Assembly (NCBI GenBank): GCA_030432565.1
Contig: JAUIGV010000027.1
Coordinates: 1-64,000 of the forward strand
From: Verrucomicrobiia bacterium
Lineage (GTDB): Bacteria > Verrucomicrobiota > Verrucomicrobiia > Verrucomicrobiales > Akkermansiaceae
DNA: 64,000 nt
Direction of reading: 5' to 3'
The notes beneath the pieces are model-generated. The model was not told where the DNA came from, searched no databases, and was given only the letters and a program-made list of their open reading frames with translations. The translations under genes were made by a program, and so were the position numbers. This document shows positions 52,072 through 64,000 of this stretch, one piece after another (position 1 is the first letter of the stretch; the number at the start of each line of letters is the position of its first letter).

Positions 52072-52164
52072 GGAGAGTGCTGCGTGCCTGGTGGTCGCCG
52101 CGGTTTTCAAAACCGTTGAAGGGCAATCTGTCCTTGGTGGGTTCAATTCCTTCCCTCTCCGCCA
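52072..52164 (+). tRNA. selC: candidate selenocysteine tRNA, anticodon UCA
   Basis: A 93-base segment ends in an encoded GCCA. Anticodon stem GCGGT/ACCGT encloses the loop TTTCAAA, giving anticodon UCA. A long variable arm of seven pairs (AAGGGCA with TGTCCTT, loop ATC) and a T loop GTTCAATTC follow. The acceptor GGAGAG pairs with CTCTCC, then G73 and CCA. Length, variable arm and UCA fit tRNA-Sec rather than a suppressor. Odd points: the seventh acceptor position is a T-C mismatch, the T stem has one T-T mismatch, and the D stem appears to have a bulged T. It may be divergent or decaying. No selA, selB or selD is in the window. Confidence 0.7.
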
Positions 52165-52388: not shown

Positions 52389-55300
52389 ATGAGTCACTTC
52401 CTCCCGCCCTTAGACAGGCTCGCCATCTTTTGGAATTCAAAGTGGTCGACCGGCCTAAGATCCAAGGGACGCATTTCACTCCTGCTCAGCATCCTTCTAC
52501 TTGCTTTTCAAACCCCGGCAGCCCTCGCCCAAGAAGACTCCGTTCCGGTTATTATTAGTTCTCTGGAATTACGTTCGCCTTCAAATCGTGTAATCAACTA
52601 TCAAATAGCGGCAAATGGAAATCCTGATGACTTTTCAGTCGACGAACTTCCGGGGTCGCTCACGCTTGATAGCCAAGCCGGCTTAATCTCGGGATTTGTC
52701 ACTACGCCCGGTGAATACACCATCGAGATCTCAGCCGAAAACAACCTTGGCACTGGGTCTGCGACCCTCACTCTGACCATTGTAGAGCCTGAATCAATCG
52801 GAGATCTCCGCATCCTTAGACTTGGCAACCGGAACTCAACGGTTGTTGCAACGAATAACCTCACTGGAGACGATCGGGCTGGAATCGCGGTAAGTTTTGA
52901 TAGGGTCGTGGTGACCGGAGACACCTCGACTGCATCCTACAGTCTCTCAAATCTCACAGAAGGCCGCTCTCTTGACGCTCGCTACGACTCCCTTTTCTCG
53001 GATTTTGCGACCGGTAAAGTCTTTGTCTTTGGGTTCGACGGAGTTTCTCATGATGGCGAAGGCACGACGATCAATCAACTGATTGAGATTGATCCGTCTT
53101 CGGGGCAACCAACAGGCTTGATAGTCCCGCTCTCATCTACGATTCCAGTCAGCCCAAACAGCGGTGTTTTCAGCGGAAATGGACGGGTCGTACTTCACAA
53201 TGGAGAGACAGTTTTCGACATCATTATTTCAACAGGTGAAGTTTCCTCCCTTGGACGAATGTCGCGCCCCGCGTGGTACGCGACCGAGGGATGGGCCAGC
53301 TGGGGAGTCGCAGAATCCTTCGGCAATCGAATCCATCTCGCTTATCGGGGAAGTGAAAATAGCGGCAATACCATTTACAGGACCCGGGTCCCGGATGGTT
53401 TGACCGAGCCGATCTCCAGCTTTTTCAACCTCGGGGATCTCGGATCGTGGACGATTTCACCTCTCACCAGTCGTTGGTATTTCCAGTATGAAGGGGGCAA
53501 TCAATTTGGTGGATCGAATGAAACACTGGGGTATGCAGAAGCCCTGATCGACCTCGGTGAACCGACCTTCGCTCCTGCCTTACAGCCCCCTTTCGAAGTG
53601 CGTTCATTCGTGACTAATTTCAGCTATCAAATCCAAGCTTCCGGATTCCCAACAAGCTTTAGCGCCTCAGGGTTGCCCCAAGGACTATCGCTGAACCCTA
53701 CAACCGGAGTGATATCTGGTAATCTATCCGAACCTGGCGAATATGAGTTCGAGATTTCGGCGACAAACAGCATCGGGACCTCGACCGAATCTCTGGCTCT
53801 CACGGTATTTGCAGCCCCAGCGAACCAAACCCTGCAAATTCGCGAGCTCGGAGAGACCGGCTCAAAGGTAGTCGATCACGATGCTCTGACGGGCGATGAT
53901 CGTGGTGGCATTGCCGTGGGGCTGGATCGCGTTCTGGTAACCGGAGACTCTTCGACAGCTTCCTATGATCTGTTCAATCTCGAATCCGGGGTAAGCCTGG
54001 GATTTCGATATGACTCTCTTTTCACCGATCTTTCCAATGGAACAGTCTTCACCATGGCAATGGATGGTGCACCTTACAATAGCAATGGACCAACGGTTAA
54101 TCAGTTTATCGAGGTAAATCCCGCCACAGGAGAATTGACTGATCTGGTGATACCACTGAGCGAAACGATCCGTATTAATTCAGGCGGAGGCATGTTTAGC
54201 GGAAACGGTCGTCTGGCGCTCTACACGAATGGAGAGGTCATCGATATTCAGATTGCCAGTGGTATCGTAGCATCCCGCACCCCCTTGGCGCGGCCTTCCT
54301 GGTATACGACGGAGAGTTGGGCAATCTGGGGAGTGGCTGAGTATTTTGGAGGACAACTCTATTTGGCTTATCGCGGTGGTGGCAACACCGCCAACGCTAT
54401 TTTAAGGACGCAGGTCTCCAACGGATTCACCGAGACGATCTCAACGTTTCAAAATCTCGGTGATCTGGGTTCGTGGACAGTTTCACCTTTCACCAACCGT
54501 TGGTATTTTCACCATGAAGGGGGCAACCAATTCGGAGGAACAAGGGAGACCCTGGGTTATGCCGATGCCGTGATTGATATTGGCGAACCCACCGAACCTC
54601 CTTTGATTCTGGTTAATGATTCATTCATCTCGCCGACAGGACGGAATTTGGAGATTCAAATCCGCGGAAGTGGCTCGCCAACAAGCTATGGCGCCAGCGA
54701 TCTCCCCGACGGACTCACGATCAATTCCTCAACCGGATTGATTACAGGCACGCCCACCACAGCCGGAATTTATAGCGTCGAAATCGCGGCCACCAACACT
54801 ATCGGGACCTCCACCACAATAGTGACCCTCAATGTGATTGAAGTTCCTATCGGGCAGACCCTGCGAATTCTGCAAATGAATGCAAGTGGAGCGCAAGCGG
54901 TCGAGACCACCCCTTTCTCTGGTGACGACCGGGCCGGAATCGCCGTCGGATTTGACCGGGTTCTTACCACCGGCGATTCGGCAACAGCAGGCCTCGATGC
55001 CGAAGACCTGGACGAGGCGTACTCACTTGGAACCCGATACGATGGGATCTTTTCTGATCTTGGGAGCGGGACGATCTACTCCTTTGCTTTGAACGGAGTT
55101 CCGCATCTCGATAGCAGCAGATCCATCAATCAATTGCTTGTCCTTGATCCGGTCAGCGGCAGTCCGACAGGTGCCGTAATCGACCTCAGCTCGGCGATTC
55201 CAGTGGTTAACAATTGCGGTGTCTTCAGTGGAGCCGGACGGGTTGTCATTCACAATGGAACCTTTGTCTTCGATATCGACATCGCGACGGGATTTGTAAC

Positions 55301-58300
55301 CGAGCTCGGATCAATGCCCCGCCCCAATTGGTTCACCTCCGAAGGTTGGGCAGTCTGGGGTGTCGCCGAGTTTTTCAATGACCAGCTTCACATCGCGTAC
55401 CGGGGAACAGGAGATAGCGCCAACTCCTTCGTAAGGACCCAGGTGCCCGATGGTCCAACGACAACAATCGCGACTTTTGACAATCTCGGTGACTTATCCT
55501 CCTGGTCGATTTCCCCGATTGCCAATCGCTGGTATTTCCAGCACGAAGGAACCAGTCAGTTTAGTAGCACCTTCAATGAGACGATAGGTTTTGCGGATGC
55601 CACGATTTCAATCGGTGCCTCAAACCGCCCACCCCAAATCTTTGCTCCTGCGGATATCCGCACTCTGACCGGTCGAGATCTTGAGATCAGGCTCCGGGCC
55701 AGCGGGTCTCCGACCGAGGTTGAAGTGACCGGACTACCGGACGGTCTTGACTTCGACTTCGCCACCGGCCTCATTTCCGGAAGCGCGACCACGGCCGGGA
55801 ACTATACCATCGAAGTTTCAGCGACCAACGCGATCGGGACCTCTAATGCCTCCATTGCAATTACTGTGATTGGCACGGTGCCACTGGGCGACTTCCGCAT
55901 TCGTGAATTAAGTGACACACGTTCAAAGGTCATTGATCACAATTCACTCACGGGAGATGACAGAGCCGGGATTGCCGTTTCTTTCGACCGGGTCTTTGTG
56001 ACAGGAGACAGCAGCACGGCATCTTATAATCTGGATGATCTTGGTAACGGCAACCGTCTGAACAGAATTGTGGACGGCCTTTGTTCGGATCTCGCAAACG
56101 GGCTCGTCTTCACACTGGCTCTCGACGGTGTTCCTCACACCAACGGGTCGACAGCCATCAACCAGTTGATCGAGTTGGACCCCGTCTCAGGAGATCCAAC
56201 CCCGAATGGAGTGATTAATTTGTCTCAAACGATTCCTGTAAGCAACATATCCGGAGTATTCAGCGGCGGAGGCAGAATCGTCATTCACAACGGTCAGGAT
56301 GTTTTCGAAATCCAGACAGCCACCGGAACAGTGAGAGCACTCGGGGCAATGACCCGACCAAATTGGGGTGGAACAGAGGGATGGGCGGCTTGGGGAGTCG
56401 CAGAATTTTTCGGTGGCCAACTCTATATTACCTATCGGGAAGCAGGGACCAATTCCATCACACGCGCCCGCGTCCCGGACGGCTTCACCGAAACTGTGGC
56501 CACCTTCAACAATCTCGGGCAGACCGGAAGCTGGACCGTCTCCCCTCTCACCAATCGTTGGTATTTCCATTACGAAGGAGGCGCTCAGTTTGGGGGGGGG
56601 AGCGAAACACTCGGGTATGCCGATGCCATCATTGAGATGGGTAATCCGACAGAACCACCCGTCTTTACGGAGCCCTTATCCTTCCGTGCGGTTGTCAACC
56701 AAGACGTGGATTTCCAGATCAGGGCATTAAGAACCCCCACCCGTTATTCCGCAACCGGGCTTCCCTCCGGACTCACAATCAATGAAGACACCGGCCGAAT
56801 TTCAGGCGCGGTGACGACAACTGGAGATTTCCAGGTAGAGGTATCGGCTACCAACATTGTCGGAACAACGAGCCAGACTTACTCGATCAATGTCGTCCAG
56901 ATCGATCCTCCTCGAAACCTGCGGATTCTTTCACTTGAGGACTCCGGAGTTGTTACCTCGGACGCAGTTGCCTTCATGGGCGATGATCGCGGTGGCATCG
57001 CCGTTTCTCCCGACCGGGTTCTGGTAACCGGTGACAGTTCAACAGCCTCTTTCAACCGTGAGGATCTGGACGACGGGAGGTTAACCAACTCGATTGTCGA
57101 CGGTCTTTTCTCCGACCTCAACTCAGGAGGAGTTTACACCTTTGGATTCGACGGGAGGCCTCACTCTTCGGGAGCCAGCACCATCAACGAGATCGCGGAA
57201 CTGGATCCCCAAACAGGTGTTGGAACCGGATTGATCATTCGCCTTTCCCAACCGATTTCAGTCTCATCAAGTGGATGCGGGATCTTTGCTGGTGCAGGCC
57301 GTGTTGTCATTCACAACAGATTCGAGGTCTTTGATATCGAGCTAGCTTCGGGCACCGTGACCAATCTTGGAGCCATGGCAATGCCACTTTGGTTCAATTC
57401 GGAATCATGGTCCGTCTGGGGCGTTGCTGAATTCTTTGGAAATAATCTCTACCTCGTCTACCGGGGAACCGGTGATAGTCAGAATTCATTCATTCGTAAC
57501 CAGGTTCCCGACGGCCCGACCGAAAAAATCATCACTTCTTTCACAAATCTGGGCTCCCTTTCAACATGGACTATCTCACCGCAAGACAACCGTTGGTATT
57601 TTCAATTCGAAGGAACCAATCAATTTGGAAGTGTGAGCCAAGGCATTGGGTATGCCGATGCCATTCTTGACTATGGCGCACCGACAGAGGTTCCGGCATT
57701 CCTCGGATCTCTCTCCCCCAAGGTATTAATTACCAACTTTAATTATCAAATCCAGGCAAGTGGATCACCCACTAGCTTCGGTGCAAGCGGTCTTCCGGAC
57801 GGTCTGATTCTCGACCCCACAAGCGGGTTGATCACCGGCAGTCCATCTGAGCCCGGCCGATTTCCGGTCGAGATTTCTGCCACCAACGCCATTGGCACCA
57901 GTTCCACTACGATCACCTTTGACATCTTTGAACTGACGCCGGCATCAGACCTCCGCATCGTTGAACTTGGCATCACTAACTCGCAGGTTATCGATCATGA
58001 CATCTTCAGCGGAGATGACCGGTCCGGTATTGCGGTCGGCAACAGTCGTGTTCTGGTCACAGGTGACTCCGCGACTTCTTCCCACAGCCTCTTAAATCTG
58101 ACTGGAGGCCGCTCGCTTGGCATCCGCTATGATTCACTTTGTTCAGATCTTGCCACAGGTGCTGTTTACACCCTTGCCCTGAATGGGGTGCCACATCTCA
58201 GAGGGGGGCCATCCTTCAATCAATTGCTGGAGATTGATCAATCTACCGGACGTTTGACCGGCGAGGAAATCAATTTTGATGAGGAAATTTCAGTCGCAAA

Positions 58301-61300
58301 CGGAAGCGGAATATTTAGCGGCATGGGGCGCGTCGTCGTTCACAATGGCGCGGAGGTCTATGACCTCCATATTGAAACTGAGACCGCAACCTTGGTCGGA
58401 AGCATGGATCGTCCCGAGTGGTATATCAGTGAAAGTTGGGCTACCTGGGGTGTTGCGGAGTTTTTCGATGGGAGGATCCATCTTGCTTACCGAAGCGCCG
58501 AAAGCGTTACTCGTAATTCTATTTTGAGAGCCAGGGTTCCAGACGGACTCACCGAATCAATTGCTGATTTCGACAACTTGGGCGACATGGCTTCCATGAC
58601 CGTTTCACCCCTGACCGGGAGATGGTATTTCCTCCATGAAGGATCGAGTCAGTTTGGTGGCGGAAGTGAAACGCTGGGATATGCCGATGCGATTCTAGAA
58701 ATCAGTGAACCCACTGAACTCCCACGAATTCTGACGCCGGACACCCTGCGAACCCTCTCCGGCGTGGCGATCCAAATTCCAGTCAGAGCCGGGGGATCCC
58801 CTTCCAGTTACGAGGTTGCCGATTTGCCGGAAGGCCTCACTTATGATGCAACTGCTGGTCTCATTACAGGTGCTCTCAATACTGCCGGAGAATACCAAAT
58901 TGACATCTCAGCAACCAACGTGATCGGGACTTCAAGCGCCACAATCACGATCACTGTTTTGCAAATACCCTCTTTTGCCAGTCTCCAAATTCGCGAGCTG
59001 CGCGCCACCGGATCACAGGTGATTGATCACAATGCTCTGACCGGAGATGATCGTGCTGGAATCGCGGTCGGATTTGACCGTGTCCTTGTCACCGGTGACT
59101 CCCGAACCGCTTCCTATGATCTTCAAGACCTCTCCGGAGGAGTCCGATTGAGCACCCGTTATGATTCGCTCTTTTCAGATCTCTCCACCGGAACAATCTT
59201 CACTCTTGGAAGTGATGGAGTTCCTCATCAAGCCGGAGGGATTATCAACGAGATCCATGAAATCGATCAATCAAATGGCGAATTAACCGGATTTACTATT
59301 CCTCTTACTCAATCGATCCCTACCAATTCAGGTGGTGGTGGAGTATTCAGTGGAGCGGGTCGCGTTGTGGTTTTCACCCAAGGAGAGGTTTTTGACATTC
59401 ACATCGCCACAGGAATTGTTGTGCCTCGAGGCTCCATGCCAACCCCTAATTGGTATGGCACTGAAGGCTGGGCCGTTTGGGGAGTGGCCGAATCGTTCGA
59501 TAATCAACTTTATCTGACATACCGTTCCCGTGGGGTCGATCCCTTCGGACAGCAAGATCCCAATCTCATCGTCCGTTCTCGCGTGCCGGACGGGGCGACC
59601 GAAGTCGTCGCATCTTTCGCCAACCTCGGTGACCTCGGAACCTGGACGATTTCGCCCATCACCAACCGTTGGTATTTCCACCACGAGGGTGGTAATGAGT
59701 TTGGAGGGTCAAGCGAAACGCTGGGATATGCTGATGCCGTAATCGAAATCGGAGAGTCAAATGATCCCCCTCGTATCTTCGTAGTCGAATCACAGCGAGT
59801 GGTTTCCAGCGGTAATATTGAGATTCCTATCCGTATCAGCGGGAATCCCACGGGTGTTGAAGTCACAGGATTACCCGAGGGTCTGACCTTTAGTTCCTCG
59901 ACCGGATTAATCTCGGGCTCAGCAACGGAGCCGGGCACCTACCAAATTGAAGTCTCGGCAACCAATTCCAATGGGACCACCTCGGCTTCATTCCAATTAG
60001 ACGTCTTCGAACTTCCTCCTGTGGGAGAATTGCAGATTCGTGAACTCAGATCGACCGGCTCAAATGTCATCGATCACAACTCGCTCACCGGGGATGATCG
60101 AGCTGGTATTGCCGTCGGCGTCGACCGGGTTCTGGTCACAGGTGACTCAGCGACGGCTTCCTATGGTCTTAACAATCTGGATAACGGAGTGTCACTCGGG
60201 ACCCGCTATGACTCCCTGTTCTCAGATCTCTCAACCGGGCTAATCTTCACGCTCGCGATCGATGGCACGCCTCATACCATTGGCGACCAGAGTGTGAACC
60301 AACTCATTGAGATTGATCCCAATACCGGACAACTGACAGACTTTGTCATTTCCCTCAGCGAATCAGTCCCGCTCACAAGCTCGGGCGCCGGAGTCTTTAG
60401 CGGAGCCGGTCGGGTCGTTATTCATAATGGGACCGAAGTATTTGATATCCTGATCGCTACCGGAACAGTCAGACCTCAAGGGGCCATGCAGCGACCCAAT
60501 TGGTATGGCACTGAAAGTTGGGCGGTCTGGGGTGTTGCTGAATTCTTCAATGGTCAGCTTTACATTGCGTATCGTGGCGGCGGGGCCGACGGGAATAGCT
60601 TTCTCCGTGCAAGTGTTCCGGATGGAATCACTGAGACGATCTCAACCTTCACCAGCCTTGGCGACCTAGGAACCTGGACGGTTTCACCGCTTACCAATCG
60701 TTGGTATTTCCACAACGAAGGATCCAATCAGTTCGGAGGGTCCAGCGAAACACTCGGTTATGCCGATGCGGTGATTGACCTCAACATCCCGTCCCGACCT
60801 CCTTTCTTCGTGAGTAGCGATCCGATTAAAACGATCGCCGGGCAGAATTTCAGTTTTCAGGTCAGAGCACTCGGAAACCCCACAAGCTTCAGCGTCGACA
60901 CCCTGCCGATCGGATTGGGCTATAACCCAACCACCGGATTATTTTCGGGATCGATTGCCAACCCCGGTGTCTATTCGATCGAAATCAGCGCTGAAAATGA
61001 GTTCGGAATCTCGACCCAAACTATCGAGATCATTGCACCAAGTCTTGATGGTAAGAGGATTGCTCTCTTCGCTAACGAAACCTACGTTGACCTAGAGCAA
61101 GAAGCCGCCAGCGTTCGAAATTCACTGCTCTCTCTCGGATTCGAAGTGGTCTCCTTTACCGGCATCACGGCGGCAGATTGGGAAGCAGCATTTGCGGCTG
61201 ACATCGTCATTATTCCCGAGCTTGAGAAATCACTGCTGGACCTCTCCTCAGATGCCCGCAGCGCAATCAATGATCAATTGGCGGTCGGCAAAGTCCTCAT

Positions 61301-63656
61301 TGTTATGGGCTCGGCGGATGAGCATGAAGAACAATTACTCAACTCACTCAGAGGCTGGGCTCTTGTTGGTTCGATTATCGAAAACGACGGGACTTTGACG
61401 AAATCTACGCAGCGTGATGTCTTCACCAAGTCTCCGGCAGAACTCTCGACCTTTAGTGGAACTTATCTGCTCGCCAGCAATTCCATCCCTGCGGATTCCA
61501 ATTCGGTTTACACCCAGTTGAATGACACCGCTGTCTTCTACGGCGAGGGCATTGGATACCTCGGATACGATTGGTTTTCCGGGTCTGACACTGACTGGGA
61601 TCCTGTTCTGGAGGATATGATCTCAGCACTCTTGGCACCGGGACTTCAGCAATTCTCCATCTCCAGCCTGGCCGCAACCGTCAACGAAGGAAATGAGGGC
61701 CTCACCGAGGCTACCTTCACGGTAAGCCGGATTGGCAACCCCGATGTTTCGGCCTCGGTCGACTGGAGTATTGATCTGGCAGCAGCAAATCTTTCAGAAG
61801 CTGATTTCGGAGAAACATCCGGAACCATCGACTTCCCTGCGGGAGTTTCGGAACAAACACTCAACGTCTCAATAACCACCGACTTGATTGTAGAACTCGA
61901 TGAAGTCTTCACGGTCAGCATTTCCAATCCCCAAGGCATCCTCCCGGTTCTCGTTGCAAATGCCTCTTCGGCAGATGGCACCATCACCAATGATGATGCT
62001 GCAATCTTGACCCTCACTGGAAATGCTCAACTCGAAGGCGACCAAGGTGCACCAGTTCTGACTTTCACCGCCAGTCTGGACCGGCCTGTCGATGTTCCCG
62101 TGACCGGATTGTTTTCAACTCTGTCACTCGGTGGATCAACCGCGACCGAAGATATTGATTACGGTAGCATCACGGACGAGCCAATTTCAATTCCAGCTTT
62201 CACAACGGAAACCACCATCACGGTGGCCATCAGCCCCGACAACGCAGCAGAGCTCGATGAAATCGTGCAAGCTGTAATGAGTAATCTCGAAAGTGGTGGC
62301 CGGAATGTCGCACAATCGGATCAAAACCCAGAGACCGCGCGCGGAACCATCCTGGATGACGATTTCTCTCCAATTGGAAATGATGACGGAGTTTACGAAG
62401 TTGTCGAAGACGGCTCCCTGTCCGTTGCTCCCGACCTTGGCATCCTGGCCAACGACACCGATGAGGATGACGGGCTCAACGCACTCACCGTCTTTTTGGT
62501 CGATGATGTCAGCAATGGCAGTCTCAATCTCATGGACGATGGCTCCTTTTCCTACACTCCGAATCCTGACTACTTTGGCGCGGATTCGTTCACCTACCGC
62601 TCAAGCGATGGCACCAACCAAAGTGCTGACACCACTGTTTCAATCGAAGTCATTGAGCGGATCGACCTCGCCTTGGGAGCGGATATCCTGCAAACTCCGC
62701 TGGTTGCTGGTGGTGAGGCGCTGGACACCTTCCGCATAACGGTCACCAACAAAGGACCAAGCCGCGCCACTGATGTGCGTCTGGCTCTCAACTCGATCTT
62801 TCCACAGGGAGTCCTTCTGACCAATTCCACGACTAGCCTTGGCTCTTTCGATGGGGATTTCTGGACAATTGACACCCTCGATGAAAACGAGAGTGCCACC
62901 TTGGTTTTGACAATTCAAGCGTCACAGGATTCCAGTAGCGGCGCGAACAATGTGGCATTCACGATAGCTGCCACAGACGCCAACCAGACTGACACAGATC
63001 CAAGTAACGATACCGCGACTGCAGCAGTCTCAGTAATCAGTGCAGCCGACACCGGCACGGCCATAACGGCTGCTCCAGGACTGGAACTGCAGAGTGGACT
63101 GTTGACCGGCCGGGTAACCGTTACGAACAGCAACGAGGAAGCTCTCCCGGCATTCCGGCTCTACATCGGCAATCTACCTGATGATGTAAAAGTCCACAAT
63201 GCCCATGGAATTCGCTCCTTTGGGGACCCAGCCATAGATCGACCGTTCCTTCTCTACAATCAGACCCTGGCCGCTTCAGCGAGTGTCACCCTCACCGTGG
63301 AATTCTTTCGTGCGACACTCGATGCCGATTTCGACCCCGTTTACGAAATCGAACTCCTGCCCTTCTCCGAATCACTGGTCGCCAATGATCCCAATCAGAC
63401 GAACATCGCCGTCGAACGTCAGGAGGTTCTCTCGAACGGAGACTTCCTGATCGAGATCGCATCGATTCCGGACACCGTTTATGCCGTGGAATACAGCGAG
63501 AACATGACCGATTGGACTCGAGTACCGGCCACGATCACCGCAGTCGCCAACCGGCTCCAATGGATCGATAACGGAGCGCCGAAAACGAGGTCGCACCCGT
63601 CACAAGTTGCATCCCGTTTTTACCGATTTGTCATTGTCACCCCGGGGAACCAATAA
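52389..63656 (+). CDS. giant exported protein with eight tandem Ig/beta units
   Basis: 3755 residues. A signal peptide ('ISLLLSILLLAFQTPAALAQ') is followed by eight units of about 343 residues. Each has a putative Ig (He_PIG-type) domain ('GLP.GL..N..TGLISG...PG.Y..EISATN.IGTS') and a module of about 245 residues of unknown fold marked 'TGDDRAGIAVGFDRVLVTGDS.TASY', 'RYDSLFSDL', 'GVFSGAGRVVIHNG', 'AVWGVAEFF' and 'NRWYF.HEG..QFGGSSETLGYADA'. A ninth Ig domain comes next, then a Rossmann-like amidotransferase-type domain without nucleophile Cys ('GKRIALFANETYVD'), two Calx-beta domains, a cadherin-like domain ('GILANDTDEDDG'), a DUF11 domain and a verrucomicrobial C-terminal domain ('VEYSENMTDWTRVP', 'PSQVASRFYRF'). 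Likely a cell-surface adhesin or stalk protein. ATG 52389 is chosen because it precedes the signal peptide; an AGACC upstream is only a weak ribosome binding site. Confidence 0.92.
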   Translation: MSHFLPPLDRLAIFWNSKWSTGLRSKGRISLLLSILLLAFQTPAALAQEDSVPVIISSLELRSPSNRVINYQIAANGNPDDFSVDELPGSLTLDSQAGLISGFVTTPGEYTIEISAENNLGTGSATLTLTIVEPESIGDLRILRLGNRNSTVVATNNLTGDDRAGIAVSFDRVVVTGDTSTASYSLSNLTEGRSLDARYDSLFSDFATGKVFVFGFDGVSHDGEGTTINQLIEIDPSSGQPTGLIVPLSSTIPVSPNSGVFSGNGRVVLHNGETVFDIIISTGEVSSLGRMSRPAWYATEGWASWGVAESFGNRIHLAYRGSENSGNTIYRTRVPDGLTEPISSFFNLGDLGSWTISPLTSRWYFQYEGGNQFGGSNETLGYAEALIDLGEPTFAPALQPPFEVRSFVTNFSYQIQASGFPTSFSASGLPQGLSLNPTTGVISGNLSEPGEYEFEISATNSIGTSTESLALTVFAAPANQTLQIRELGETGSKVVDHDALTGDDRGGIAVGLDRVLVTGDSSTASYDLFNLESGVSLGFRYDSLFTDLSNGTVFTMAMDGAPYNSNGPTVNQFIEVNPATGELTDLVIPLSETIRINSGGGMFSGNGRLALYTNGEVIDIQIASGIVASRTPLARPSWYTTESWAIWGVAEYFGGQLYLAYRGGGNTANAILRTQVSNGFTETISTFQNLGDLGSWTVSPFTNRWYFHHEGGNQFGGTRETLGYADAVIDIGEPTEPPLILVNDSFISPTGRNLEIQIRGSGSPTSYGASDLPDGLTINSSTGLITGTPTTAGIYSVEIAATNTIGTSTTIVTLNVIEVPIGQTLRILQMNASGAQAVETTPFSGDDRAGIAVGFDRVLTTGDSATAGLDAEDLDEAYSLGTRYDGIFSDLGSGTIYSFALNGVPHLDSSRSINQLLVLDPVSGSPTGAVIDLSSAIPVVNNCGVFSGAGRVVIHNGTFVFDIDIATGFVTELGSMPRPNWFTSEGWAVWGVAEFFNDQLHIAYRGTGDSANSFVRTQVPDGPTTTIATFDNLGDLSSWSISPIANRWYFQHEGTSQFSSTFNETIGFADATISIGASNRPPQIFAPADIRTLTGRDLEIRLRASGSPTEVEVTGLPDGLDFDFATGLISGSATTAGNYTIEVSATNAIGTSNASIAITVIGTVPLGDFRIRELSDTRSKVIDHNSLTGDDRAGIAVSFDRVFVTGDSSTASYNLDDLGNGNRLNRIVDGLCSDLANGLVFTLALDGVPHTNGSTAINQLIELDPVSGDPTPNGVINLSQTIPVSNISGVFSGGGRIVIHNGQDVFEIQTATGTVRALGAMTRPNWGGTEGWAAWGVAEFFGGQLYITYREAGTNSITRARVPDGFTETVATFNNLGQTGSWTVSPLTNRWYFHYEGGAQFGGGSETLGYADAIIEMGNPTEPPVFTEPLSFRAVVNQDVDFQIRALRTPTRYSATGLPSGLTINEDTGRISGAVTTTGDFQVEVSATNIVGTTSQTYSINVVQIDPPRNLRILSLEDSGVVTSDAVAFMGDDRGGIAVSPDRVLVTGDSSTASFNREDLDDGRLTNSIVDGLFSDLNSGGVYTFGFDGRPHSSGASTINEIAELDPQTGVGTGLIIRLSQPISVSSSGCGIFAGAGRVVIHNRFEVFDIELASGTVTNLGAMAMPLWFNSESWSVWGVAEFFGNNLYLVYRGTGDSQNSFIRNQVPDGPTEKIITSFTNLGSLSTWTISPQDNRWYFQFEGTNQFGSVSQGIGYADAILDYGAPTEVPAFLGSLSPKVLITNFNYQIQASGSPTSFGASGLPDGLILDPTSGLITGSPSEPGRFPVEISATNAIGTSSTTITFDIFELTPASDLRIVELGITNSQVIDHDIFSGDDRSGIAVGNSRVLVTGDSATSSHSLLNLTGGRSLGIRYDSLCSDLATGAVYTLALNGVPHLRGGPSFNQLLEIDQSTGRLTGEEINFDEEISVANGSGIFSGMGRVVVHNGAEVYDLHIETETATLVGSMDRPEWYISESWATWGVAEFFDGRIHLAYRSAESVTRNSILRARVPDGLTESIADFDNLGDMASMTVSPLTGRWYFLHEGSSQFGGGSETLGYADAILEISEPTELPRILTPDTLRTLSGVAIQIPVRAGGSPSSYEVADLPEGLTYDATAGLITGALNTAGEYQIDISATNVIGTSSATITITVLQIPSFASLQIRELRATGSQVIDHNALTGDDRAGIAVGFDRVLVTGDSRTASYDLQDLSGGVRLSTRYDSLFSDLSTGTIFTLGSDGVPHQAGGIINEIHEIDQSNGELTGFTIPLTQSIPTNSGGGGVFSGAGRVVVFTQGEVFDIHIATGIVVPRGSMPTPNWYGTEGWAVWGVAESFDNQLYLTYRSRGVDPFGQQDPNLIVRSRVPDGATEVVASFANLGDLGTWTISPITNRWYFHHEGGNEFGGSSETLGYADAVIEIGESNDPPRIFVVESQRVVSSGNIEIPIRISGNPTGVEVTGLPEGLTFSSSTGLISGSATEPGTYQIEVSATNSNGTTSASFQLDVFELPPVGELQIRELRSTGSNVIDHNSLTGDDRAGIAVGVDRVLVTGDSATASYGLNNLDNGVSLGTRYDSLFSDLSTGLIFTLAIDGTPHTIGDQSVNQLIEIDPNTGQLTDFVISLSESVPLTSSGAGVFSGAGRVVIHNGTEVFDILIATGTVRPQGAMQRPNWYGTESWAVWGVAEFFNGQLYIAYRGGGADGNSFLRASVPDGITETISTFTSLGDLGTWTVSPLTNRWYFHNEGSNQFGGSSETLGYADAVIDLNIPSRPPFFVSSDPIKTIAGQNFSFQVRALGNPTSFSVDTLPIGLGYNPTTGLFSGSIANPGVYSIEISAENEFGISTQTIEIIAPSLDGKRIALFANETYVDLEQEAASVRNSLLSLGFEVVSFTGITAADWEAAFAADIVIIPELEKSLLDLSSDARSAINDQLAVGKVLIVMGSADEHEEQLLNSLRGWALVGSIIENDGTLTKSTQRDVFTKSPAELSTFSGTYLLASNSIPADSNSVYTQLNDTAVFYGEGIGYLGYDWFSGSDTDWDPVLEDMISALLAPGLQQFSISSLAATVNEGNEGLTEATFTVSRIGNPDVSASVDWSIDLAAANLSEADFGETSGTIDFPAGVSEQTLNVSITTDLIVELDEVFTVSISNPQGILPVLVANASSADGTITNDDAAILTLTGNAQLEGDQGAPVLTFTASLDRPVDVPVTGLFSTLSLGGSTATEDIDYGSITDEPISIPAFTTETTITVAISPDNAAELDEIVQAVMSNLESGGRNVAQSDQNPETARGTILDDDFSPIGNDDGVYEVVEDGSLSVAPDLGILANDTDEDDGLNALTVFLVDDVSNGSLNLMDDGSFSYTPNPDYFGADSFTYRSSDGTNQSADTTVSIEVIERIDLALGADILQTPLVAGGEALDTFRITVTNKGPSRATDVRLALNSIFPQGVLLTNSTTSLGSFDGDFWTIDTLDENESATLVLTIQASQDSSSGANNVAFTIAATDANQTDTDPSNDTATAAVSVISAADTGTAITAAPGLELQSGLLTGRVTVTNSNEEALPAFRLYIGNLPDDVKVHNAHGIRSFGDPAIDRPFLLYNQTLAASASVTLTVEFFRATLDADFDPVYEIELLPFSESLVANDPNQTNIAVERQEVLSNGDFLIEIASIPDTVYAVEYSENMTDWTRVPATITAVANRLQWIDNGAPKTRSHPSQVASRFYRFVIVTPGNQ
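52543..60797 (+). repeat. eight tandem coding repeats of about 1.03 kb
   Basis: Repeat units begin near 52543, 53566, 54598, 55629, 56655, 57690, 58719 and 59767, and a ninth partial unit (Ig part only) begins near 60797. Spacing is 1023-1048 bp. All units keep the reading frame and the same order of motifs, but differ at many synonymous and non-synonymous sites, so the array is not freshly amplified. Units 3 and 5 lack the otherwise constant 'FGG..ETLGYADA' wording to some degree and are the most divergent. Confidence 0.9.
56592..56600 (+). repeat. G9 homopolymer inside the giant gene
   Basis: Nine consecutive G's encode the three glycines in 'QFGGGSE' of repeat unit 4. In the sister units the same glycines are written with mixed codons (GGTGGA, GGAGGA, GGTGGCGGA, GGAGGG). 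A tract of this length is prone to slippage, which would truncate the protein at about residue 1404. Confidence 0.85.
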
Positions 63657-63684: not shown

Positions 63685-64000
63685 ATGAACAACTCTCTCT
63701 CTCTTCTCCTCGCTCTCACGGTCCCATCAATAGCCGGTGAATCCTCCACCGCAAAAGAGGTCATTCCTTTTCCGGACACCGGCGCCAAAGGAATCATCAC
63801 GCCAACCAAAGCAGAAAGTCCGTGGAGCATCCGGTCGGGAATTTCCTGGCGGAGCCTTGGCAAGACCTCCATCGATCCCGGCTTTCGTTCATCGGCGACT
63901 TTCGCCTCCAGTTTCTTCTCCCCCAATCCTGCCTCCGGTCCCCTGGGCCAGAACTCCAACCGAACCTACGATAATGGGTTTGTGAACCTCGGCGCAGCCA
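63685..64000 (+). CDS. exported protein, 5' part only (outer-membrane type)
   Basis: The frame is open from ATG 63685 to the window end (105 residues seen). It has a short signal peptide (MNNSLSLLLALTVPSIAG) and then a mature start with alternating hydrophobic/polar strands ('WSIRSGISWRSLGK', 'SSATFASSFF', 'NRTYDNGFVNLG') that resemble the opening of verrucomicrobial outer-membrane beta-barrel proteins. It begins 28 bases after the stop of the giant gene and is probably co-transcribed, which would fit an outer-membrane partner for it. No family can be fixed from the fragment. Confidence 0.6.
   Translation, partial: MNNSLSLLLALTVPSIAGESSTAKEVIPFPDTGAKGIITPTKAESPWSIRSGISWRSLGKTSIDPGFRSSATFASSFFSPNPASGPLGQNSNRTYDNGFVNLGAA

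Follow-up and report, generated by a model that had tools for sequence, protein, structure and literature searches.

The closest described counterparts of the locus reported here are the T9SS type B pairs of Bacteroidota. As set out in two reports, genes for cargo proteins with a type B CTD are commonly followed directly by a gene for a PorP-SprF-like barrel, as in SprB-SprF and PG1035-PorP (PMC9143113; PMC12618676), the two genes lying side by side in 9 of 12 cases in F. johnsoniae (PMC12618676). The former report further states that the PorP-SprF-like barrel is bound to SprB and is required for the secretion of the two substrates that were tested (PMC9143113). A second point of comparison is BapP of Pseudoalteromonas tunicata, a surface adhesin described as having a single N-terminal, predicted five-bladed propeller, 12 Ig-like sandwiches and possible type I secretion (PMC12153261).

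The locus lies in a window of 64,000 nucleotides (the whole stretch of DNA analysed) at the start of contig JAUIGV010000027.1, from a genome of the Akkermansiaceae. Like the T9SS type B pairs, it combines a large surface-type protein bearing a conserved C-terminal domain, here termed the tail, with an adjoining barrel gene. It differs from them in that neither PorP_SprF nor SprA_N was matched in the present genome (G000, 97% complete): it yielded no PorP_SprF match, against 12 in each of two Bacteroidota control genomes, and no SprA_N match, against positive results in both controls. Eighteen barrels of the kind found here match 8 families, and PorP_SprF (PF11751) is not one of them. A search of NCBIfam with 18 tails, and of Pfam and NCBIfam with the whole protein, gave no CTD family, in libraries that may lack a type B model. 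Nor did Pfam return any POTRA, ShlB or autotransporter family, the marks of two-partner secretion and autotransporters, in the giant protein or in the 18 barrels. BapP, by its description, likewise joins a predicted five-bladed propeller to Ig-like domains, but the present protein has eight propellers, each set between two Ig domains, and its gene is followed by one for a barrel. A literature search in open-licence papers found no publication on such tail/barrel pairs in Verrucomicrobiota.

Architecture of the giant protein

The giant gene occupies positions 52389-63656 of the forward strand; the ORF list and the translation confirmed that it begins with ATG and is read without any internal stop into 3755 residues, as the initial annotation had it. 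The mature protein computed from this sequence has a mass of about 392 kDa and a pI of 4.2. A hydrophobic stretch with an ALA end before a Q, recognized by eye, marks a likely signal peptide (52389-52529, forward strand, as are all features of the protein below), and relatives of its module in other genomes carry secretion-type domains, both in keeping with the earlier description of a surface protein. It is very probable that the giant protein is extracellular. A scan of the upstream region for promoters and terminators gave a single promoter and a single terminator, each on the minus strand, where shuffles give 0.5 and 0.8. The gap just upstream of the gene also contains a selenocysteine tRNA gene (anticodon tca, 52072-52164, forward strand).

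Module search and alignment delineated eight copies of a module at 52806-53558 (module 1, residues 140-390), 53832-54584 (module 2, 482-732), 54861-55616 (module 3, 825-1076), 55896-56642 (module 4, 1170-1418), 56916-57677 (module 5, 1510-1763), 57951-58700 (module 6, 1855-2104), 58983-59753 (module 7, 2199-2455) and 60030-60782 (module 8, 2548-2798). The eight units of about 343 residues proposed earlier are borne out by a start-to-start period of 340-349 residues, with the correction that the module itself, as cut here, spans 249-257 residues and not 245. The phrases that had been called invariant recur exactly in just 3-6 of the 8 copies (TGDDRAGIAV in 4, RVLVTGDS in 5, GVFSGAGRVV in 3, WGVAEFF in 5 and NRWYF in 6), whereas their cores, namely GDDR, G-D, W..WGVAE and RWYF, are indeed present in all eight. 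The coupling of an Ig domain to each module stands as an alternation, but Pfam detected nine He_PIG stretches (E 5.8e-86, 283.5 bits versus a cut-off of 24), beginning with one before module 1 and ending with one after module 8. Domains 1-8 occupy stretches of 91-94 residues that each precede one module, and the ninth lies at 60783-61052.

The array is followed by a stretch of about 200 residues without a family (residues 2889-3088, 61053-61652), which looks alpha/beta by eye and may, by its look, be flavodoxin- or class I GATase-like. This stretch, scanned as 61056-61664, had no match in Pfam and nothing better than E 0.7 among PDB sequences, and its appearance is unusual within an otherwise all-beta surface protein. 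Beyond it lie two Calx-beta stretches (61653-62363; Pfam and BLASTP), a Big_9/Cadherin_5 domain (62364-62654; Pfam) and a DUF11 domain (62655-63038; Pfam), which form part of a base shared with other proteins (see below). The protein ends in a domain of 84 residues without a family name (residues 3672-3755, 63402-63653), with the pattern W.D.G.P.T.SHP ... R.YR, which is a candidate export or anchor signal. The Calx-beta, cadherin-like and DUF11 domains had been foreseen in the initial annotation, which missed the 200-residue stretch and this C-terminal domain.

The modules of the window are pairwise 48-68% identical, with 61 of 262 alignment columns invariant, and when one of them is searched against the genome, its seven sister copies are all recovered with E-values of at most 1.2e-66, far beyond what chance would give. 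At comparable four-fold sites, where the residue and the first two codon letters are equal, the third letter agrees in just 23-44% of cases. As charged sites are kept despite this divergence, the copies are old and under selection at the protein level. An assembly artefact was ruled out by the divergence among the copies, which amounts to 32-52% of residues and is near random at silent sites.

A module family with a predicted propeller fold

No Pfam or NCBIfam family matched module 8, which agrees with the earlier statement that the module is not a recognized one, and the literature search in open-licence papers found no publication on it. To examine its fold we modeled module 8 with a few flanking residues in AlphaFold2, using a 77-row alignment (A3), and obtained a model with a mean pLDDT of 96.6, a pTM of 0.94 and 20 strands of at least 3 residues. 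In VIA-align the best match of this model was papaya glutaminyl cyclotransferase (2iwa; Z 12.4, rmsd 4.1, 203 residues aligned), next to which stood the NHL domain of Brat (5ex7; Z 12.3) and olfactomedin-1 (6qhj; Z 12.0, 211 residues aligned), with a GH62 arabinofuranosidase (Z 10.1) and phytase (Z 9.6) also found; identity among the VIA-align matches listed was 6-12%. Foldseek TM-scores (query) were low, 0.26-0.46 among the 50 matches listed, and the fold assignment relies on the AlphaFold2 model and VIA-align rather than on Foldseek. On this modeling the module almost certainly folds as a beta-propeller, so that of the two folds suggested initially, propeller and beta-helix, the predicted model supports the first and not the second.

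The number of strands and the spacing of the motifs point to five blades; the Z-scores are similar for matches that we take to be five-bladed (glutaminyl cyclotransferase and olfactomedin, 12.4 and 12.0) and six-bladed (NHL, 12.3). From the number and order of strands in the model we infer a five-bladed propeller whose first strand would close the last blade. The initial annotation expected a very long fibre; in this predicted topology the two ends of the module adjoin, and the Ig domains would then form a string from which the propellers project as side knobs. A model of module 7, the intervening Ig domain and module 8 (pTM 0.53, mean pLDDT 76.7, with 7 alignment rows) was too weak to decide on the fibre geometry.

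The known fold did not lead to a known family: no match to a characterized domain turned up that would contradict the novelty of the module. Olfactomedin domains and glutaminyl cyclotransferase resemble it in fold but differ in sequence at the low identity given above, and neither is among the 15 Pfam families that match any of 77 modules at E <=1. A comparison with PDB by sequence drew in S-layer proteins at E 0.03 or worse, which were treated as chance. DUF6923, a Pfam repeat whose function is not known, was considered as a parent family and rejected; Pfam matched it in 5 of 77 modules with a best E of 0.0024, and hhalign gave probabilities of 1.8 and 13.6% in a profile-profile comparison that used only four DUF6923 sequences. 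These four sequences are without the module motifs GDDRGGIA, WG..E and RWYFHHE. A DUF6923 protein is encoded elsewhere in the same genome (L077, contig C41).

Profile searching with the module, which the initial annotation had proposed, found relatives elsewhere. These come from a single scan, restricted by a sequence pattern, that covered 84,980 species genomes and gave 55 loci, by record title 23 from Myxococcota, 12 from 'delta proteobacteria', 7 from Verrucomicrobiota, 4 from Bacteroidota, 3 from Pseudomonadota, 2 each from Planctomycetota and Cyanobacteriota, and 1 each from Ignavibacteria and Actinomycetota. Module relatives are thus mainly found in Myxococcota, and the titles span eight phyla, some of them doubtful. 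Two records titled Akkermansia muciniphila (L020) and Klebsiella pneumoniae (L040) are metagenome bins whose names look like errors of labelling or binning. With three further loci there were 76 module matches over 58 ORFs, 71 of them near full length; the 5 partial ones were excluded from the alignment, and the modules of L010 and L011 were excluded from its 77-row version. These ORFs carry one to three copies each, eight being the highest number seen. No relative was found on plasmids (tblastn) or viral contigs.

Among the relatives that were scanned for other domains, both Bacteroidota members have Por_Secre_tail, all five proteins titled Myxococcota or 'delta' have Stig1-type repeats, and others carry RTX, Calx-beta, Ig, cadherin and cohesin domains; a crude lipobox pattern is present in 16 of the 58 ORFs. 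Five proteins titled Myxococcota or delta (L022, L026, L043, L044 and L071) display stalks rich in Asp, Thr, Gly and Pro with Stig1-type Cys repeats, additional cysteines within the module (CESWA or CENWA, and DMCSF), and a module that is often at the extreme C-terminus.

In an IQ-TREE phylogeny of 79 modules the eight copies of the window form one clade (support 100/99), nested in a set of 13 modules (100/99); the remaining five belong to two genomes from within the order and to two records that carry Verrucomicrobiota in the title. This single origin indicates that the copies multiplied within this lineage. The module of one genome of the same order (G082) is identical to that of L020, a record placed in Verrucomicrobiota, which accords with the placement of the present genome in that phylum. 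Searches of 97 genomes returned a module match in four, namely the present genome, two with a clear single copy and one with a marginal match of 44 residues, and the module was absent from 26 genomes of the same genus. Hence either this lineage acquired the gene or related genomes have lost it.

The conserved base and its partner barrel

The gene next to the giant gene begins 28 nucleotides past its stop codon, on the same strand, and encodes a predicted outer-membrane beta-barrel of 368 residues with a signal-like start and a final Phe. It sits mostly past the end of the window, which contains positions 63685-64000, and continues to contig position 64788 (L087:3686-4789), where it is closed by a stop codon. 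Lying largely out of reach of the initial annotation, this gene is in our view a more important element of the locus than the array. Pfam matched it weakly to OMP_b-brl (E 0.0012, 19.5 bits, below the cut-off of 28.7), a weak match that recurs in 14 of 18 barrels of the family, 17 of which have F as the last residue; the barrels measure 358-435 residues. The genome encodes only two relatives of the barrel, each just downstream of an ORF of 1796 or 1936 residues, and it is these two ORFs that match the last 82 residues of the giant protein, so that all three barrels of the family in this genome have a tail gene as neighbor.

We compared the giant protein by BLASTP with large ORFs from 33 regions that contain a barrel gene. 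Matches were found in 25, and every one of them begins at residue 3081 or later, none lying in the array; the matched length is about 670 residues in G034 and G027, 330-510 in most others and 187-212 in four. The portions preceding this base are of diverse kinds, and in five base-bearing proteins that were scanned they comprise seven Bact_surface_Ig-like domains, DUF7933 with DUF11, PQQ, cadherins with DUF4347, and FG-GAP repeats, respectively. Base and tail therefore stay with the barrel while the heads change. A profile of the tail (A5) has matches in 66 of 97 genomes, most of them weak, and six in the present genome, of which three weak ones are without a barrel. Given that tail matches are wider and weaker than those of the barrel and are in part unaccompanied, the tail belongs to a wider group of domains.

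The association of tail and barrel was assessed at several scales. In 20 regions picked by a barrel match alone, 18 of 21 barrels have a large tail-bearing ORF directly upstream, and of the remaining three one is without upstream sequence, one belongs to a reversed pair (G060) and one has no tail gene (G079). The barrel profile (A6), from which L115-L117 were left out, has matches in 37 of 97 genomes, and pairs were counted between the 50 best tail matches among those listed (E to 2.2e-17) and the best 43 of 49 barrel matches. Thirty of these 43 barrels follow a tail match on the same strand, with 23-454 nucleotides between the profile matches, and 12 of the 30 were not seeds; four directly precede the tail gene (G044, G095:C48, G060 and G066) and one is divergent (G045:C455). 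A tail neighbor is thus present for 35 of the 43 best barrels, and a barrel neighbor for 35 of the 50 best tails, the other 15 having no adjoining barrel. Among the eight barrels without a tail neighbor three are at contig ends (G004, G025 and G050), and for the others (G079, G071, G092, G095:C97 and G045:C188) there is no tail gene in the contig sequence, the last three being on short contigs. The unusual orders can be seen at L128, L130, L131, L132 and L133, the last with divergent and the other four with reversed genes.

A barrel match was seen in 33 of 288 genomes sampled across the phylum. Thirteen barrel regions that were examined comprise eight with the pair (six canonical, two reversed), two with fusions, and three that are short of upstream sequence. 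The pair recurs in family f26, three times in G188 and also in G282 and G112. In G237 and G166, two other genomes of the phylum (L118:2923-7971 and L119:5127-7625), a distant barrel of this kind is the C-terminal part of a long, coiled-coil-looking protein rich in Lys, Glu and Ala, and has no tail partner. Tail protein and barrel are thus encoded by a conserved two-gene cassette, and we regard it as likely that they form a functional pair. At the 58 module loci elsewhere no ORF matches the tail or the barrel profile at E 1, with positive controls that worked; as far as seen, among the loci examined, the module and the tail/barrel cassette are joined only here.

Proposed ligand binding, export and anchoring

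Positions of the module were taken as conserved if a residue was kept in at least 85% of the 69 modules from outside the window, with numbering by the first row of A3. There are 41 such positions, 12 of them charged or His and each of these kept in 62-69 of the 69 modules; the copies of the window retain 89 of 96 charged cells and 210 of 232 other conserved cells. Their charged losses concern D216 in two copies, H232 in four and E244 in one. All 77 modules carry E175 and R197, and D26, D27, D43, E166, D216, E234 and E244 each occur in at least 90%. As each propeller bears nearly the same charged residues, the eight copies most likely share the same putative ligand site, to judge from sequence conservation. 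Five-bladed propellers often place a catalytic site at the mouth of the channel, as in glycosidases and glutaminyl cyclotransferase, and the near-universal charged residues, together with the presence of glutaminyl cyclotransferase, arabinofuranosidase and phytase among the structural matches, could suggest that the propellers are enzymes and the eight copies a surface-bound degrading array. We think this unlikely, as the 77 modules have no convincing match to an enzyme family, solved chains are reached by sequence only at the chance level noted above, and D216 and H232 are missing from two and four of the eight window copies; moreover, Z-scores to enzymes say nothing on catalysis, because propeller folds are common to many functions. 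A similarly low probability attaches to the array being a passive spacer that projects a tip, with conservation reflecting folding. This would account for the 29 conserved positions that are uncharged, many of them G, W, F or L, and for the distribution of charged positions by strand topology, where seven of the twelve in loops of one face against one on the other are not a significant bias (Fisher p 0.15). It sits poorly with the retention of the twelve charged positions both elsewhere and in the window, and with a protein of 345 residues (L055) that consists of a signal region, a single module and a PEP-CTERM-like end scoring 0.1 bit below the cut-off. The module is also hardly a spacer where it ends within 7 residues of the C-terminus, as in 24 of the 58 ORFs, all titled Myxococcota or delta. 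On balance we lean towards ligand binding by the propellers, over catalysis or mere spacing, as the predicted role.

For the barrel, the tight pairing with the tail and the lack of an SprA_N match in the genome could be reconciled with a barrel that performs the translocation on its own, as a two-partner secretion pore responding to the C-terminal signal. We consider this improbable in view of the 18 barrels matching no POTRA, ShlB or autotransporter family, and of their size, which leaves little room for a periplasmic part. A barrel might alternatively be a co-regulated porin for the products of what the head catches, with the protein anchored otherwise, and pairs of a surface binder and an outer-membrane channel for catch and import do exist in Bacteroidota, as exemplified by SusD/SusC. 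Such a porin would be expected to track the ligand of the head, but the barrel tracks the tail, and the proteins paired with it have the base in common and not the heads, so that this appears the more doubtful of the two. That heads differ over a common base is the best reason for supposing that the barrel serves export or anchoring rather than the ligand of the head, and a putative role as shuttle or anchor of the tail protein is accordingly the one that we favor, if by a modest degree.

Taken together, we find it reasonably probable that the giant protein is a modular protein for multivalent display at the surface, provided with a signal for export or anchoring at its C-terminus and with a barrel of its own. 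In this proposal Sec would export the protein into the periplasm, where the 84-residue signal domain that ends the base would be recognized by the cognate outer-membrane barrel from the next gene, and the barrel would carry the protein across the outer membrane, hold it there, or both. Above the base, eight five-bladed propellers strung on nine Ig domains would act as a multivalent binder, either an adhesin or a catcher of glycans.

How very large proteins reach the surface in Verrucomicrobiota is a matter for which a literature search, mostly in open-licence papers, found no explanation. We tentatively raise the possibility that Verrucomicrobiota have a surface export or anchoring system of their own that is free of SprA, in which base and signal domain are read by a dedicated barrel, the eight-propeller protein being one cargo with an exchangeable head. 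With tail and barrel conserved over families f1, f3, f6 and f26 while heads change, the question of surface export becomes directly testable, and the tail domain can serve as a label for listing cargoes. The propeller module, in turn, is a well-bounded domain family with fixed charged residues that is ready for studies of its structure and ligands. Should the pair function in the manner of SprB/SprF but independently of SprA, it would represent convergence on the anchoring of a cargo by its own barrel.
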